Part shown: positions 30,142 through 36,505 of the stretch, piece by piece | Position numbering within the stretch: position 1 is the first letter of the stretch | Layout: the number at the start of each line of letters is the position of its first letter | Assembly: GCA_025936735.1 (NCBI GenBank) | Contig: JAICSU010000006.1 | Location: forward strand, 1-36,600 | Length of the DNA stretch: 36,600 bases | Direction: 5' to 3' | Source: Amnibacterium sp. | GTDB lineage: Bacteria > Actinomycetota > Actinomycetes > Actinomycetales > Microbacteriaceae | Notes under the pieces: model-generated | The model's database searches: none | Seen by the model: the letters and a program-made list of their open reading frames with translations, nothing else | Told to the model about the DNA's origin: nothing | Made by a program: the position numbers and the translations under genes

Positions 30142-31263
30142 TCAGCCGAGCAGCTTCAGCGCGAGCTGCGGCGCCTGGTTCGCCTGAGCGAGCATCGCCG
30201 TACCCGACTGGGCCAGGATGTTCGCGCGGCTGTAGTTGACCATCTCCGACGCCATGTCGACGTCGGTGATCCGGCTCTTCGCGGCGGTCAGGTTGGTGAC
30301 CGACGTGGAGATGGTCGACACGGCGCTTGCGAAGCGGTTCTCGAGGGCACCGATCGTGGACCGGGCCGAGGAGACGTTCGCGATCTGCGTGTCGATCGCC
30401 GTGATGGCGGCCTGCGCGTGCGCAGCCGTGTCGAACTGCACCGTCGCCGCGGTGACCGTACCGGCCGCGATGCCCGTTCCGGGCGCCGTCCCCGACACCG
30501 TCGTGCCGAGCTTCGACGAGACGATGAGGTTGTTGCTGCTGTCGGCGGTCGCGCTGAAGGCGTTCGCGAAGTCCGAGTTCGCGTTCAGTGCGTCGGCGAG
30601 GCCCTGCGTCGTCGACGGGACGCTACCCGCGGCGATCGTGTAGGCCACCGAGGTCTTGCCGGTGGTGAAGGTGTACGTGCCGGCCGCGAGCGTCCCCGGG
30701 GTCACCGCGAACGATGCCTGCGAGGTCGAGCCGAGCGCCGAGGCGACCGACGTGAGGTCGAAGCCCGCACCGCTCAGCGTGACACCGATCTGGCTCTGCG
30801 AGTTGCCGTCCGCGCCCACCTGGAAGTTCATCGTGCCGGCCGTGCCGTCGAGCAGGGTCTTGCCGTTGAAGTTGGTGGACTGGCCGAGACGGGTCAGCTC
30901 GTTCTTGATGCTGGTCGCCTCGGTACCGATCGCCGTGCGGGCGCTCGTGCTGTTCGAGTCGTTCGCGGCCTGGACCGCGAGGTCGCGAAGCCGGCCGAGG
31001 AGCGACTGCGCCTGGCTGAGCGCACCGTCCGCGGTCTGCACGACCGAGGTGCCGTCCTGAGCGTTGCGGCTGGCCTGCTGGAGGCCGGACACCTGCGAAC
31101 CCAGGGTGGTGGCGATGGTCAGACCGGCGGCGTCGTCGCCGGCGTTGTTGATGCGCAGACCGCTCGAGAGCTTTGCGAGCGAGTTCGAGAGCGAGTTCTG
31201 CGTGTTCTGCAGGTTCCGATACGTGTTGAGCGCATCGAGGTTGGTGTTGACTGAGAATCCCAT
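30142..31263 (-). CDS. fliC: Flagellin
   Basis: This 373-residue filament subunit has a complete N-terminal D0/D1 region (MGFSVNTNLDALNTYRNLQ, SLSNSLAKLSSGLRINNAGD, DAAGLTIATTLGSQVSGLQQ, QSLLGRLRDLAVQAANDS) and C-terminal region (IGALENRFASAVSTISTSVT, SRITDVDMASEMVNYSRANI, ending LAQANQAPQLALKLLG). The variable middle is short. GGAGGAACTA before ATG 31263 fixes the start. A sigma-28 promoter lies upstream at 31327-31353, and the sigma factor gene is just upstream of that. Confidence 0.93.
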   Translation of the reverse strand: MGFSVNTNLDALNTYRNLQNTQNSLSNSLAKLSSGLRINNAGDDAAGLTIATTLGSQVSGLQQASRNAQDGTSVVQTADGALSQAQSLLGRLRDLAVQAANDSNSTSARTAIGTEATSIKNELTRLGQSTNFNGKTLLDGTAGTMNFQVGADGNSQSQIGVTLSGAGFDLTSVASALGSTSQASFAVTPGTLAAGTYTFTTGKTSVAYTIAAGSVPSTTQGLADALNANSDFANAFSATADSSNNLIVSSKLGTTVSGTAPGTGIAAGTVTAATVQFDTAAHAQAAITAIDTQIANVSSARSTIGALENRFASAVSTISTSVTNLTAAKSRITDVDMASEMVNYSRANILAQSGTAMLAQANQAPQLALKLLG

Positions 31264-31326
31264 TAGTTCCTCCGTGATCTGGGATCTGGTGTGTAATCCG
31301 GTCCATCCGTGGTCCGACGCGAACAC

Positions 31327-31353
31327 CTATCGGCGTCCGGGCCAGGGCTGTTA
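31327..31353 (-). promoter_or_regulatory. Sigma-28 (FliA) promoter of the flagellin gene
   Basis: On the minus strand TAAC (31350-31353) is followed by a 15-nt spacer and GCCGATAG (31327-31334). This matches the enterobacterial FliA consensus TAAA-N15-GCCGATAA except for one base in each element. Transcription should begin near 31319, giving a leader of about 55 nt before the flagellin ATG. Confidence 0.8.
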
Positions 31354-31360
31354 GCGGTCG

Positions 31361-31378
31361 CCCCGAAGTGGGGACGTC
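31361..31378. promoter_or_regulatory. CCCC-N5-GGGG-ACGTC motif next to the flagellin promoter
   Basis: CCCCGAAGTGGGGACGTC starts 7 nt upstream of the flagellin -35 element. A near copy with the same ends lies at 32325-32342 in the fliA/flgN divergent region. The position, about -42 to -59, suits an activator. A simple 4-bp hairpin is the alternative reading. Confidence 0.45.
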
Positions 31379-31382
31379 CATC

Positions 31383-31411
31383 CGCGTGCCGTCTCTAGGA
31401 CACGGCACGCG
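31383..31411 (-). terminator. Hairpin at the end of fliA with the stop codon in the loop
   Basis: CGCGTGCCGT (31383-31392) pairs perfectly over 10 bp with 31402-31411. The 9-nt loop contains the TAG stop of fliA. It would limit fliA transcription from entering the flagellin gene, leaving flagellin to its sigma-28 promoter. Confidence 0.55.
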
Positions 31412-32210
31412 AGACGTCGAAGCGGGCGGCTACGCCCGGCGTCATGCCCGCGGTCGCAGTCTCCGCGAGGCGCGCCAGGTAGGCGGCGCGACGCGCCGGG
31501 GCGACCCGTGAGTGCTGCTCGGCCGGCGCGGCGTCCGCGTAGTGGGCCTCGAGGCCGTCCCGCATCAGGCGGACGGCCTCGGAGCGCTGCTGCGACACCG
31601 CGGAGTGGGTGAGGCCCAGCTCCTCCGCGAGGTCGTTGACGCTGCGGTCGTGGAAGTAGATCTGCTCGACGATGTAGCGCATCCGCTCCGGCAGGGCCGT
31701 CACGGCAGCCGACACGTAGCGGGTGCGCTCGGTGTCGAGCATCGCGTCCTCGGGGTTCGCGATCTCGGAGGCGACGAGGTCACCCATCGTCTCGTCGAGG
31801 CTCGCCACGCTGCGGGACGCGTCGGCGAGCGCCTCGGCGGCCGCCTTCCGGTCCACGCCGAGCGACTCGGCGAGCTCGTCGATCGTCGGGGTGCGACCGA
31901 GCGCCTGGGTGAGGGACTCCTGCACCTGCAGGGACTCGCGGATGCGCCTCCGCGTCGCGCGGCTCGCCCAGTCCGCCGCGCGCATCTCGTCGGCGATCGC
32001 ACCGAGCACGCGCCGGCGGGCGAAAGCGCCGAAGGGCACGCCCTGGGCGGGGTCGAACGTCTCGGCCGCCATCAGCAGGCCGAGCGAGCCCGCGGAGGCG
32101 AGCTCGTCGCGTGAGAGGTGGGTGGCCCGCCGGGCGACCTCGTTCACGAGGTAGCCGACGATCGCGAGGTTCTCGCGCACCAGGCGGTCGCGCTGCTCCC
32201 GTGCCGTCAT
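31395..32210 (-). CDS. fliA: Flagellar sigma factor FliA/sigma-28 (WhiG-like)
   Basis: This 271-residue sigma factor of the FliA/WhiG group recruits RNA polymerase to late flagellar promoters. Region 2 is seen as LSRDELASAGSLGLLMAAETFDP and FGAFARRRVLGAIADEMRAADW. Region 3 is seen as TRRRIRESLQVQESLTQALGRTPTIDELAESLG in sequence. Region 4 follows with ALPERMRYIVEQIYFHDRSV and NDLAEELGLTHSAVSQQRSEA. The start is ATG 32210 behind a GGGGGA Shine-Dalgarno. The gene is divergent from the flgN-flgK-flgL-fliW operon. No anti-sigma gene flgM is visible in this window. The first target is probably the flagellin promoter beside it. Confidence 0.88.
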   Translation of the reverse strand: MTAREQRDRLVRENLAIVGYLVNEVARRATHLSRDELASAGSLGLLMAAETFDPAQGVPFGAFARRRVLGAIADEMRAADWASRATRRRIRESLQVQESLTQALGRTPTIDELAESLGVDRKAAAEALADASRSVASLDETMGDLVASEIANPEDAMLDTERTRYVSAAVTALPERMRYIVEQIYFHDRSVNDLAEELGLTHSAVSQQRSEAVRLMRDGLEAHYADAAPAEQHSRVAPARRAAYLARLAETATAGMTPGVAARFDVSRAVS

Positions 32211-32480
32211 CCGTCCCCCAAGGGATCCCGTGCACGCGGAAAGGGCGTGCCGCGGTCGCGAGCGTATGGGCGGCCGCGGGCGGGATCGGGGAGCGCCACG
32301 GGGCACGGAGGATCCCCCGCCTGCCCCCAGTTCGGGGACGTCGCGCCTCCCGCGGATCACCTCCGCACCGTCCTATGCTCCGGCCGGTCCCGCCGCGACC
32401 CGCGCGCCGTTCCTTACATATGGCGCTTGCGGACCGAGAGTGGGAGTCGCGCCGTTCTCCGGCGCCGGAAGGAGCGGACT
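32211..32480. promoter_or_regulatory. Divergent regulatory region between fliA and flgN
   Basis: This 270-nt region has no gene. For fliA, TACGCT (minus strand, 32261-32266) is a -10 candidate. For flgN, TATGCT (32374-32379) is a -10 candidate without a clear -35, and an AT-rich patch TTACATAT lies at 32414-32421. The motif CCCCAGTTCGGGGACGTC is at 32325-32342. No sigma-28 box is visible, so both operons are probably read by the main sigma factor with an activator. Confidence 0.45.
32325..32342. promoter_or_regulatory. Second CCCC-N5-GGGG-ACGTC motif, fliA/flgN region
   Basis: CCCCAGTTCGGGGACGTC shares CCCC, GGGG and ACGTC with the site at 31361. The 13-bp cores match at 12 of 13 positions when one is reverse-complemented. 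It is about 31-36 nt upstream of the flgN -10 candidate. Confidence 0.45.
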
Positions 32481-32972
32481 GTGGGCGCCAACGACCTGTC
32501 GACACTGCTCTGGCGCGAGCGCGAGCTGCTCGAGCTGCTCGTGTTCAAGCTCGAGGAGGAGCAGCTGCTGCTCACCGCGGGCCGCTCGAAGTGGCTGCAC
32601 CACGCCACCCGGGAGGTCGAGGCCGTGCTCGCCCGCCTCCGCACCGCGGGCATCGAGCGCACCGTCGAGGCGTCGGCGGTGGCCGTCGAATGGGGTCTCG
32701 GCGAGGACGCGACGCTCCGCCAGCTCGTGGAGCACGCGCCCAGCGATGTCTGGCGCGACATCCTGCAGTCCCACCTCACCGCCCTGACCGCACTCACCGC
32801 GCAGATCGCCGACGTGCGCGACACGAACCTCACCTACCTGCGCGCGGCGACCCGGGCCACTCAGGAGACGCTCGCCACCGTCGGCGCCGCCGAGCCCGTC
32901 GGCGTCTACACGGGGCGGGGGACGCACAGCTCGTCGAGCACGTTCGCCCACCTGTTCGACCGGCAGGCCTGA
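32481..32972 (+). CDS. FlgN-type flagellar chaperone
   Basis: This 163-residue, mostly helical protein begins with ANDLSTLLWRERELLELLVF and KLEEEQLLLTAGRSKWL, the long coiled-coil-prone helix usual in FlgN, and continues with helical stretches to a polar end (STFAHLFDRQA). FlgN holds the hook-filament junction proteins FlgK and FlgL for export, and both genes follow directly. The GTG start at 32481 is 6 nt after GGAAGGAG (32467-32474). Sequence motifs alone are weak; the position supports the call. Confidence 0.75.
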   Translation: MGANDLSTLLWRERELLELLVFKLEEEQLLLTAGRSKWLHHATREVEAVLARLRTAGIERTVEASAVAVEWGLGEDATLRQLVEHAPSDVWRDILQSHLTALTALTAQIADVRDTNLTYLRAATRATQETLATVGAAEPVGVYTGRGTHSSSSTFAHLFDRQA

Positions 32973-34399: not shown

Positions 34400-35310
34400 T
34401 GAACCTCCGCATCACCAGCCAGCAGCTCGCCTACGGCTCCGCCGGCGACATCGCGACCACGAAGGCGCGGCTCGCGAAGCTGCAGCAGCAGGCCTCGTCG
34501 GGGGCCGCCATCACGAAGCCGTCGGACGACCCGGCGGGCACGGCCGCCGCGATGCGGGTGCGTGCGCAGCAGCGGGCGAATGCGCAGTACTCGACGAACA
34601 TCGACGACGCGAACTCGTGGCTGACGACCACGGACTCCACCCTGACGGCGTCCGAGAACCTGCTTCGGCAGGCGATCGACGTCACCACGCAGGGCGCGAA
34701 CACCGGGGCGCAGACGCCGACCTCCCGCGCCGCGCTCGCGACGCAGCTCGACGGCATCCGGGCCGACCTGCTCGGGCAGGCGAACACCAAGTACCTCGGC
34801 CGGTCGGTCTTCGCCGGCACGTCCGACGCCGCGAACGCGTTCGACGCATCCGGCACCTTCGCGGGCGTGGCCGGCGGCGCCGTGCAGCGACGCATCAGCG
34901 GCACGGAGACGGTCTCGGTGAGCGCCGATGGCGCCGCGGCGTTCGGCGACGGCAGCAGCGCCGCGTCGCCGTCGGTGTTCCAGACGATCGACGCGATCTC
35001 CGCGGCGCTGCGCGACACGAGCGGCCAGAGCGACGCTCAGATCACCGCGGGTCTCACGGCGCTGCAGAACGGCCTCACCCAGATGAGCGCCGTCCACGCG
35101 ACGGTGGGCGCCGACTATGCTCGCGTGACCGCCGCGAAGACCACGAACGCGAACGAGTCCCTCACGCTGGAGACCCAGCGCTCGGGGATCGAGGACGCCG
35201 ACACGACCAAGGTGCTGCTCGACCTGAAGACGCAGGAGGTCGCCTACCAGACGGCGCTCCAGGTCACCGCGCAGTCCATCCAACCGACCCTGATGAGCTT
35301 CCTGCGATGA
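34399..35310 (+). CDS. flgL: Flagellar hook-associated protein 3 (FlgL)
   Basis: This 303-residue flagellin-like junction protein sits between FlgK and the filament. N-terminal sequence NLRITSQQLAYGSAGDI, LAKLQQQASSGAAITKPSDD and the C-terminal DLKTQEVAYQTALQVTAQSI with QPTLMSFLR are typical. NTKYLGRSVFAGT matches the family's middle strand. The ATG overlaps the FlgK stop, and the stop overlaps the next ATG (ATGA at 35307-35310). Confidence 0.92.
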   Translation: MNLRITSQQLAYGSAGDIATTKARLAKLQQQASSGAAITKPSDDPAGTAAAMRVRAQQRANAQYSTNIDDANSWLTTTDSTLTASENLLRQAIDVTTQGANTGAQTPTSRAALATQLDGIRADLLGQANTKYLGRSVFAGTSDAANAFDASGTFAGVAGGAVQRRISGTETVSVSADGAAAFGDGSSAASPSVFQTIDAISAALRDTSGQSDAQITAGLTALQNGLTQMSAVHATVGADYARVTAAKTTNANESLTLETQRSGIEDADTTKVLLDLKTQEVAYQTALQVTAQSIQPTLMSFLR

Positions 35311-35711
35311 TCACGAACACCCTGTCCCGTGCCGGCCGCCTCGTCTTCACGACGCCGCCTCCCGGCCTCTCCCCCGTCGTCGACTTCGAGCTCGACGAGG
35401 TCGAAGGGGCCTTCGGCCTCTACGCGATGCGCGACACGGTCGGCGCCGACCTGCGCCTGTTCCTGCTCGACCCGGCGGTGTTCGTGCCGGAGTACAGGCC
35501 GCAGCTGTCGGACGAGCATCTCGCGCCGATCGGCGCCGAGGACCCGGAGCAGGTGGACGTGTACGTCGTCGCGACGCTCTCGGACGGGGCGCCGGTCGTG
35601 AACCTGCTGGCGCCGATCCTCGTGCACCCCGAGACGCACGCTGCCACCCAGGTGATCCTGGACGGCGCGGACTGGCCCCTCCAGGCGGAGCTCATCTCAC
35701 CCGAGGGCTGA
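35307..35711 (+). CDS. fliW: Flagellar assembly factor FliW
   Basis: This 134-residue protein binds flagellin and, in bacteria with CsrA, also sequesters CsrA so that flagellin translation is adjusted to assembly. Family features are the DFELDEVEGAFGLYAM segment, LRLFLLDPAVFVPEY, DVYVVATLSDGAPVVNLLAP and the final strand APILVHPETHAATQVILD. It is translationally coupled to flgL. A csrA gene normally follows fliW, but here a convergent unrelated gene comes next. Confidence 0.88.
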   Translation: MITNTLSRAGRLVFTTPPPGLSPVVDFELDEVEGAFGLYAMRDTVGADLRLFLLDPAVFVPEYRPQLSDEHLAPIGAEDPEQVDVYVVATLSDGAPVVNLLAPILVHPETHAATQVILDGADWPLQAELISPEG

Positions 35712-35759: not shown

Positions 35760-36164
35760 TCAGCCGGCGAGCTCCTCCAGGAGCAGGGCGGCCATGTGCT
35801 GCACCTTCGGCTCCACGTAGGCGTCCAGCGTGCGCAGGATCACCGGCTTCTGCCGCGTGATCCAGGCGGTCGCATCCCCGCGCAGCTGCGTGCGCATGGC
35901 GTCCACCTCGTCCTGGGGCAGGAAGGGCTCGAGGGCCAGCGACCGGCGGATGTGCTCGGTGATGAGGCCGTCGATCGACACGGTGAGGGCGTGCAGCACG
36001 CCGTGCGGAACGTCCTCGAGGCCGAGCTCCGCGGCCCAGACCGGGCAGACCGGGCAGAGCCGCTCCCGCTTCCGCATCGCGGCCGGGTCCCAGCGGGGCA
36101 GCCAGGCGAGCCACTGGGCGACGGCTCGGTCGAGTTCGCGCTCGAGGCGGTAGGGGCGCAGCAT
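35760..36164 (-). CDS. Uncharacterised small protein with a CPVC motif
   Basis: This 134-residue, mainly helical, tryptophan-containing protein has two clustered cysteines (LCPVCPVW, about residues 37-43) and long amphipathic helices (VLHALTVSIDGLITEHIRRSL, AMRTQLRGDATAWITRQKPV). I do not recognise a family. The CPVC pair could bind metal or be redox-active. GGGGAGCG lies before ATG 36164. Just upstream is a G-rich 10-bp tandem repeat on the opposite strand. It converges with fliW; whether it has a motility role is unknown. Confidence 0.65.
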   Translation of the reverse strand: MLRPYRLERELDRAVAQWLAWLPRWDPAAMRKRERLCPVCPVWAAELGLEDVPHGVLHALTVSIDGLITEHIRRSLALEPFLPQDEVDAMRTQLRGDATAWITRQKPVILRTLDAYVEPKVQHMAALLLEELAG

Positions 36165-36180
36165 CAGCGCTCCCCGTGTC

Positions 36181-36207
36181 GGGCAGGGGTGGGCAGGGGT
36201 GGGCAGG
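36181..36207 (+). repeat. 10-bp tandem repeat with G-quadruplex pattern
   Basis: GGGCAGGGGT is repeated 2.7 times in a row. It gives five runs of three or four Gs with 1-2 nt loops, the canonical quadruplex pattern. The G-rich strand is the template of the minus-strand gene, ending 16 nt before its start codon. Confidence 0.7.
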
Positions 36208-36390
36208 ACGCGCTCCTCGGAGCGGGTACGGCCACGGTGGGGTGCGTGGTCACTTGGGGGGATCCGTTGGGTGCGGAAGCGATCGTCGCGGGGGTACGCG
36301 ACAAGCACCGGATGGGTGGCCGGCGCCCTCTCACGCTACTGACAGGGGCCGTCGCCTCATATCCCCCGTAGGGGGGGGACCCCGGAAGGG

Positions 36391-36445
36391 CTGTTGCCAC
36401 TTTCTGCGGCCATGGGCACGCCAAGACAGCAGAAAGTGGCAACAG
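36391..36445. repeat. Perfect 17-bp inverted repeat with 21-nt loop
   Basis: CTGTTGCCACTTTCTGC (36391-36407) and its exact complement at 36429-36445 enclose 21 nt. It is AT-richer than its surroundings, lies in non-coding DNA and has no T-run. It may be a dispersed palindromic (REP-like) element rather than a simple terminator. Confidence 0.75.
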
Positions 36446-36459
36446 TCGGGGAGGACGGA

Positions 36460-36491
36460 GGGCCCGCCGTCCCTCGCGGGATGACGGGCCC
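36460..36491 (-). terminator. Terminator of the gene entering from the right edge
   Basis: A 14-bp stem with a single mismatch and one G-T pair (36460-36473 with 36478-36491) closes on a TCGC tetraloop. It begins 14 nt after the TAG stop of the partial minus-strand gene. Confidence 0.75.
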
Positions 36492-36505
36492 TTCGTGGCT
36501 CGCAT

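Follow-up and report, generated by a model that had tools for sequence, protein, structure and literature searches.

We detected a short C4/G4 element, CCCC-GNACT-GGGG, in the intergenic DNA upstream of fliA in much of the family Microbacteriaceae, where it stands at helically phased distances from -10-like sequences and in a preferred orientation towards them. We infer that it is probably the operator of a transcriptional activator of the LuxR/NarL type in Microbacteriaceae, with the response regulator RR-A as the first candidate for the protein that would bind it. The window, the whole stretch of 36,600 nt that was analysed, belongs to an Amnibacterium-like member of the family whose genome is a 2.94-Mb draft in 322 contigs (84% complete). 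A first-pass annotation of the window had read a CCCC-N5-GGGG-ACGTC motif in two flagellar regulatory regions as the possible site of an uncharacterised flagellar activator. In substance it was right: the box is very probably an activator's operator, which much of the family shares and which stands in phase with promoters.

By sequence check, the two sites, CCCCGAAGTGGGGACGTC and CCCCAGTTCGGGGACGTC, occupy positions 31361-31378 and 32325-32342 of the window, as had been reported, and the match of their cores at 12 of 13 positions once one is inverted was reproduced. The boxes and the parts around them are listed in Table 1, with genes called by our own codon-usage script. The further claim that these are the only two regulatory regions holds for the part of the flagellar block that the window covers (about 28-36 kb); other flagellar genes lie outside it. 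The fliA product matches its family at 1.7e-38 (132.6 bits, under the curated cut-off of 189.6); its closest named match, at 97%, is to an Amnibacterium MAG, and loci from other Amnibacterium, from Naasia and from Microbacteriaceae come next. A search of the window against Rfam gave no match at the gathering threshold.

Table 1. Positions of the boxes, promoter elements and genes in the window.
Feature	Position	Strand	Remarks
Flagellin	30142..31263	-	named from its own sequence
Presumed sigma-28-type flagellin promoter, GCTAAC...GCCGATAG	31327..31355	-	from sequence; kept in near loci
Box 1, CCCC-ACTTC-GGGG read towards flagellin (reversed polarity)	31361..31373	-	adjoins the sigma-28-like -35
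fliA, sigma factor, 271 aa	31395..32210	-	FliA/WhiG subfamily, TIGR02479
Candidate fliA -10, TACGCT	32261..32266	-	57 nt from box 2, fourth phased slot (25, 35, 46, 57)
Box 2, C-CCCC-AGTTC-GGGG (+)	32324..32337	-	reads CCCC-GAACT-GGGGG towards fliA, the consensus polarity
Candidate flgN -10, TATGCT	32374..32379	+	36 nt from box 2
flgN-like gene, followed by flgK-, flgL- and fliW-like genes	32481..32972	+	names from sequence and order
Possible third box, CCCCC-GTA-GGGGGG	36363..36376		about 200 nt before the 134-aa gene

The exact string CCCC-N5-GGGG-ACGTC has two matches in the draft genome, which are the window's pair; with one mismatch there are 19, and a reversed control pattern with at most one mismatch gives 17. 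Within the window, CCCC-N5-GGGG has four matches (two of them overlapping) against 2.1 expected, and 21 of 100 shuffles reach four, so that this count is at chance level and non-significant. Since the in-window counts are at chance and the one-mismatch count is close to that of the reversed control, the case for the motif rests on relatives. The ACGTC flank, which had been taken as part of the motif, was rejected: only 3 of 60 boxes upstream of fliA, the one in the window among them, have it (or its reverse) as a neighbour, and the side on which it lies differs between flagellin and flgN.

We detected fliA in 79 of 249 Microbacteriaceae genomes and fetched 40 of these 79 loci. The pattern CCCC-N4..6-GGGG occurs 56 times in the 97.8 kb of upstream-type intergenic DNA of the 40 loci (0.57/kb), compared with 21 occurrences in their coding DNA (676.8 kb; 0.031/kb) and not at all in 3.8 kb of convergent DNA. 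A strict box is present upstream of fliA in 27 of the 40 loci and absent from 13. All 4-mers were compared as spaced palindromes with arms 0-12 nt apart (13 spacings) in 32 fliA-upstream regions from 25 genera; nine of the 40 fetched loci, in which the gene caller found no fliA start, were dropped and the window was added. CCCC-N5-GGGG ranked first, in 17 of 25 genera against 1.3 expected from dinucleotide shuffles, and CCCC-N6-GGGG, for the most part this element again where it has five Cs or Gs, ranked second (16 genera against 1.33). The copy conserved in these other genera is box 2.

Within the genus, CCCCASTTCGGGG has 22 matches in seven genomes compared with two for its reversed control. 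All 22 copies are intergenic, none of them between convergent genes, and three are in a genome in which fliA was not found (G005). Over the 249 genomes, CCCCGNACTGGGG was counted 247 times in those with fliA (control 60) and 224 times in those without it (control 110); the motif is thus enriched two-fold even in genomes that lack fliA. Enrichment upstream of flagellar genes in relatives, on which the first-pass annotation had staked its reading, is what we found, and the reading survives.

Genes for the cell surface and for motility are prominent among the predicted targets, which are not restricted to flagella. In one relative (G006), boxes stand before flhA, a gene of the flagellar rod, a fliM-like gene and the genes for a PilB-type ATPase and a pilin; in a second (G003), they stand before a scanned pilin gene and before genes that occupy the positions of flhA and PilB. 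Except for three that were scanned, the gene names in G003 and in G026 rest on order and length. With limits drawn by eye, the motility cluster of G006 holds eight boxes in 3.75 kb of upstream DNA against one in 6.1 kb of neighbouring DNA, and that of G003 nine in 2.8 kb against one in 7.0 kb. Other targets in the genus are two LuxR-type response regulators, a sugar transferase, an RTX-repeat protein and a carboxylesterase, and a prepilin peptidase is box-preceded in the window's own genome (C94). Across this and other genera, we also found boxes before genes for a CWB2 cell-wall protein, an MFS transporter, a TetR regulator, a protein kinase, a Bmp protein, a CshA-repeat adhesin, CTP synthase and DUF6541. 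Among 97 rows examined (26 of them from the same genus, and with some places counted twice), 86 are intergenic, including five between convergent genes, and 11 are inside genes. Since the targets also include genes for type IV pili, exopolysaccharide and adhesins, as well as unrelated ones (CTP synthase, Bmp, carboxylesterase), the regulon would be wider than flagella. The idea of a flagellar activator site agrees with the flagellar enrichment and with the phasing described below, but is too narrow.

If a protein on the box touches RNA polymerase, the distance from the box to the -10 is expected in whole helical turns. We measured this offset from the end of the box to a -10-like TANNNT in 230 boxes, obtained by merging 254 instances by similarity. 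The offsets peak at 25 (7), 35 (12), 46 (9) and about 57 nt. Offsets of 34-36 were seen 22 times, compared with a shuffled mean of 3.1 and a maximum of 10 in 500 shuffles; offsets of 24-26 and 45-47 were seen 10 and 15 times, and those between the peaks 4 (29-31) and 3 times (39-41). The phased slots (25/35/46/57), which were defined after the peaks had been observed and which include partly non-independent homologous promoters of related genera, are filled by 61 of 230 boxes against 12.8 in shuffled downstream DNA (maximum 23 in 300 shuffles), and the remaining 169 boxes have no TANNNT in a phased slot. A second compilation with additional loci gave 232 boxes and a Rayleigh statistic of 41.9 at 10.5 nt (n=95); the non-flagellar loci alone give 18.5 (n=53). 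Five control patterns (the side away from the gene, GGGG-N-CCCC, CCGG, CCGC patterns and wider-spaced C4/G4 pairs) stay at or below 3.3, but with only 6 to 20 TANNNT each they are weak controls, and the shuffling of downstream DNA is the stronger one. The phasing is the signature of a putative helically phased activator site. On the fliA side, an offset of 34 or 35 is the commonest (14 of 37 regions with a box); on the flgN side, the offset of 36 is found in 4 of 37 regions, all from Amnibacterium (the window, L022, L025 and L031).

The core is polar and reads CCCC-GNACT-GGGG towards the predicted -10. Among the phased boxes with an N5 core (n=57), 40 read CCCC-GnnnT-GGGG towards the -10, four read in reverse (AnnnC) and 13 are of other types, whereas polarity over all boxes is balanced (68 vs 60). 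A TTG(A/C/T) 15-26 nt upstream of the -10 is found in 5 of the 61 phased promoters, which is background (5.7% in shuffles). This polarity, together with promoters poor in -35 elements, has the appearance of an orientation-dependent activator site. At some promoters with a box at offset 45-46 (L206, L207, L218, L224, L250, L251 and L267), a GACAGAC..GTCTGTC sequence, which resembles a TetR-type operator, lies between the box and the -10, and these look like an activator site and a repressor site at one promoter.

Phasing and fixed polarity also bear on whether a protein is needed at all. The box could be a short GC-rich hairpin, a terminator remnant or a chance palindrome in GC-rich intergenic DNA, as the non-significant count within the window, the stem of only 4 bp, the variable spacing (N4-N6) and the five rows between convergent genes might suggest. 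We consider this very improbable: the boxes are phased and polar, the convergent DNA of the 40 loci contains none of them, and no T-run terminator was found in 31200-32600 of the window.

An activator bound to the box would sit on one helix face upstream of main-sigma promoters that lack a recognisable -35 and would recruit RNA polymerase. If the -10 hexamer is taken to begin at -12, the centre of the box lies at about -44, -54, -65 or -76. Box 2 would serve fliA at offset 57 and, on its other side, flgN at offset 36, and would thereby start the flagellar cascade. FliA would then make flagellin, whose promoter has a box of its own in Amnibacterium. The first candidate for the regulator is RR-A together with the neighbouring histidine kinase.

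The role of the flagellin box is less clear. Amnibacterium and its neighbours have the C4/G4 element upstream of both fliA and flagellin; the flagellin copy is found mainly in Amnibacterium and near relatives, and most genera tie the box to fliA. Box 1 lies at a nearly fixed distance from a promoter that we assign to the sigma-28 type by its likeness to the sigma-28 consensus (6-7 nt upstream of the -35-like element in six of the nine nearest loci, window included), yet its polarity is reversed and it faces away from flagellin. This arrangement, a box abutting the -35 in reversed polarity, would suit a repressor operator, at least at flagellin. We regard a repressor as improbable, since the phased promoters mostly centre the box at about -54 or further up. 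Sites at about -54 or further upstream are usual activator positions.

Separate from the box, the flagellin leader contains a GGA-loop hairpin (31299-31316, minus strand) of the form CCCA-Y-GGA-Y-GGG or similar. Of 40 relatives, 31 have such a GGA-loop in the stretch from fliA to flagellin (L166-L204), mostly 43-54 nt before the called start. The flagellin-leader hairpin is a likely CsrA site. A csrA gene was found in the flagellar cluster of one relative (G006), and the window has a fliW-like gene at 35307-35711.

A looser third site had been proposed at 36363, before a gene at 36164-36505. The string is present, but the codon-usage script did not call the named reading frame as a gene; it calls a 134-aa gene at 35760-36164 on the minus strand. 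In the two relatives compared, the homologue of this gene is preceded by a box in G003 and has none before it in G006. The 134-aa protein, encoded next to the fliW-like gene, is conserved in Amnibacterium (67-71% in G003 and G006) and matched no Pfam or NCBIfam family. The leader of the gene contains a CGGTCACCCAGCCGG-like sequence, and a 25-nt inverted repeat with a 5-nt gap (36391-36445, 88% complementary), possibly a terminator or the end of a mobile element, lies beside the possible third box.

As for the regulator, FlhDC, FleQ, CtrA and other flagellar master regulators stand at the top of the hierarchy and act from a site in front of the sigma-28 gene. Among the subset of flagellar-cluster genes scanned in G006, we found no gene of the FlhDC, FleQ or CtrA kind and no other DNA-binding initiation regulator, and a regulator inside the cluster was set aside. 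Operators of the NarL/DosR type are short inverted half-sites bound by GerE-domain response regulators; by their description, NarL heptamers and the GGGAC boxes of DosR differ from the C4/G4 box in sequence and orientation.

RR-A is a NarL/LuxR-type response regulator encoded beside a histidine kinase, with a tRNA methyltransferase also present in two of the three loci scanned. Boxes precede 6 of 10 same-genus copies of RR-A, the other four being in genomes without resolved gene calls there (G002 and G005), and none of the seven other-genus copies among those listed. In Amnibacterium the RR-A boxes occupy three different in-phase slots (25-26, 35 and 46). In raw counts, made without correction for phylogeny or genome size, CCCCGNACTGGGG has 434 sites against 143 for the control in the 175 genomes with RR-A, compared with 37 against 27 in the 74 genomes without it; 10 of these 37 (and 2 of the 27) come from two fliA-positive drafts, the window's own genome (G000, 84% complete) and G071. 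RR-A was found in neither draft, and both carry boxes. Because the profiles carry no phylogenetic correction and the window's own incomplete genome yielded no RR-A, this regulator is a lead and not a result.

The same operator might instead be read by RR-B, an orphan response regulator of about 256 aa that was found in the window's own genome (G000:C148:1513-2280), unlike RR-A. A box lies upstream of RR-B in all seven same-genus genomes (three full C4/G4, four degenerate), RR-B is present in 26 of 30 fliA-positive genera against 16 of 48 fliA-negative ones, and CCCCGNACTGGGG gives 353 sites against 98 for the control with RR-B and 118 against 72 without it (249 genomes, uncorrected for phylogeny). 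We nevertheless hold RR-B to be an unlikely activator: its own boxes show no clear phased TANNNT, and three genera without RR-B at the cut-off used (g3, g96 and g97) keep the motif excess, which rejects it as a required regulator. A second motif, GGGGGACA...TGTCCCCC or GTCCCCC, was observed near the promoters of RR-B and sugar-transferase genes (L068, L073-L075 and L136-L138).

A regulator other than RR-A and RR-B, with a specificity like that of RamA, is a possibility to which we give somewhat more weight, although it too is rather unlikely. According to an excerpt of the report on RamA of Corynebacterium glutamicum (PMC4847777), this LuxR-type global regulator has many targets and binds the motifs A/T/C-CCCC-N and A/T/C-GGGG-N, so that a LuxR-type regulator is able to read C4/G4 stretches. 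The halves of our box are likewise CCCC and GGGG, but the RamA motifs described there are single stretches and the element here is the polar CCCC-GNACT-GGGG. RamA itself was set aside: its equivalog NF041673 was above cut-off in none of 60 genomes, the window's own included, while the C. glutamicum positive control matched, and no same-genus genome has a full-length match (extended matches were found only in G013, G025 and G031, from other genera). Among 20 GerE matches in G006, one LuxR protein with a weak, sub-cut-off GAF match lies about 40 kb from fliA, but it has no box in the 300 nt upstream.

TcrA of Actinoplanes missouriensis has flagellar targets. In the available excerpt of its description (PMC12691653), TcrA is an orphan response regulator and a global activator of development; it resembles the regulator proposed here in being a global activator in a motile actinobacterium, but its box is a direct repeat, GCA(A/C)CCG-n4-GCA(A/C)CCG, in contrast to our inverted C4/G4 element. 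The TcrA box was rejected, since it is at chance level in the window (five two-mismatch matches against 4.7 expected, none of them in the fliA/flgN or flagellin gaps).

To our knowledge, the switching-on of actinobacterial flagella has been worked out mainly in Actinoplanes. Among the open-licence papers screened we found no description of this C4/G4 element, nor is it named in the available part of a survey of actinobacterial flagella (PMC10746217). With RR-A as the preferred candidate, we tentatively suggest, at less than even confidence, that one global activator, probably a two-component system of the NarL type, acts through the box to couple flagella with type IV pili, exopolysaccharide and adhesins and regulates its own gene in Amnibacterium. 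If true, this would amount to a single master switch for surface and motility in flagellated Microbacteriaceae. For these soil and plant bacteria, the analysis provides a concrete candidate operator, a predicted regulon of flagella, type IV pili and surface genes, and two candidate regulators.
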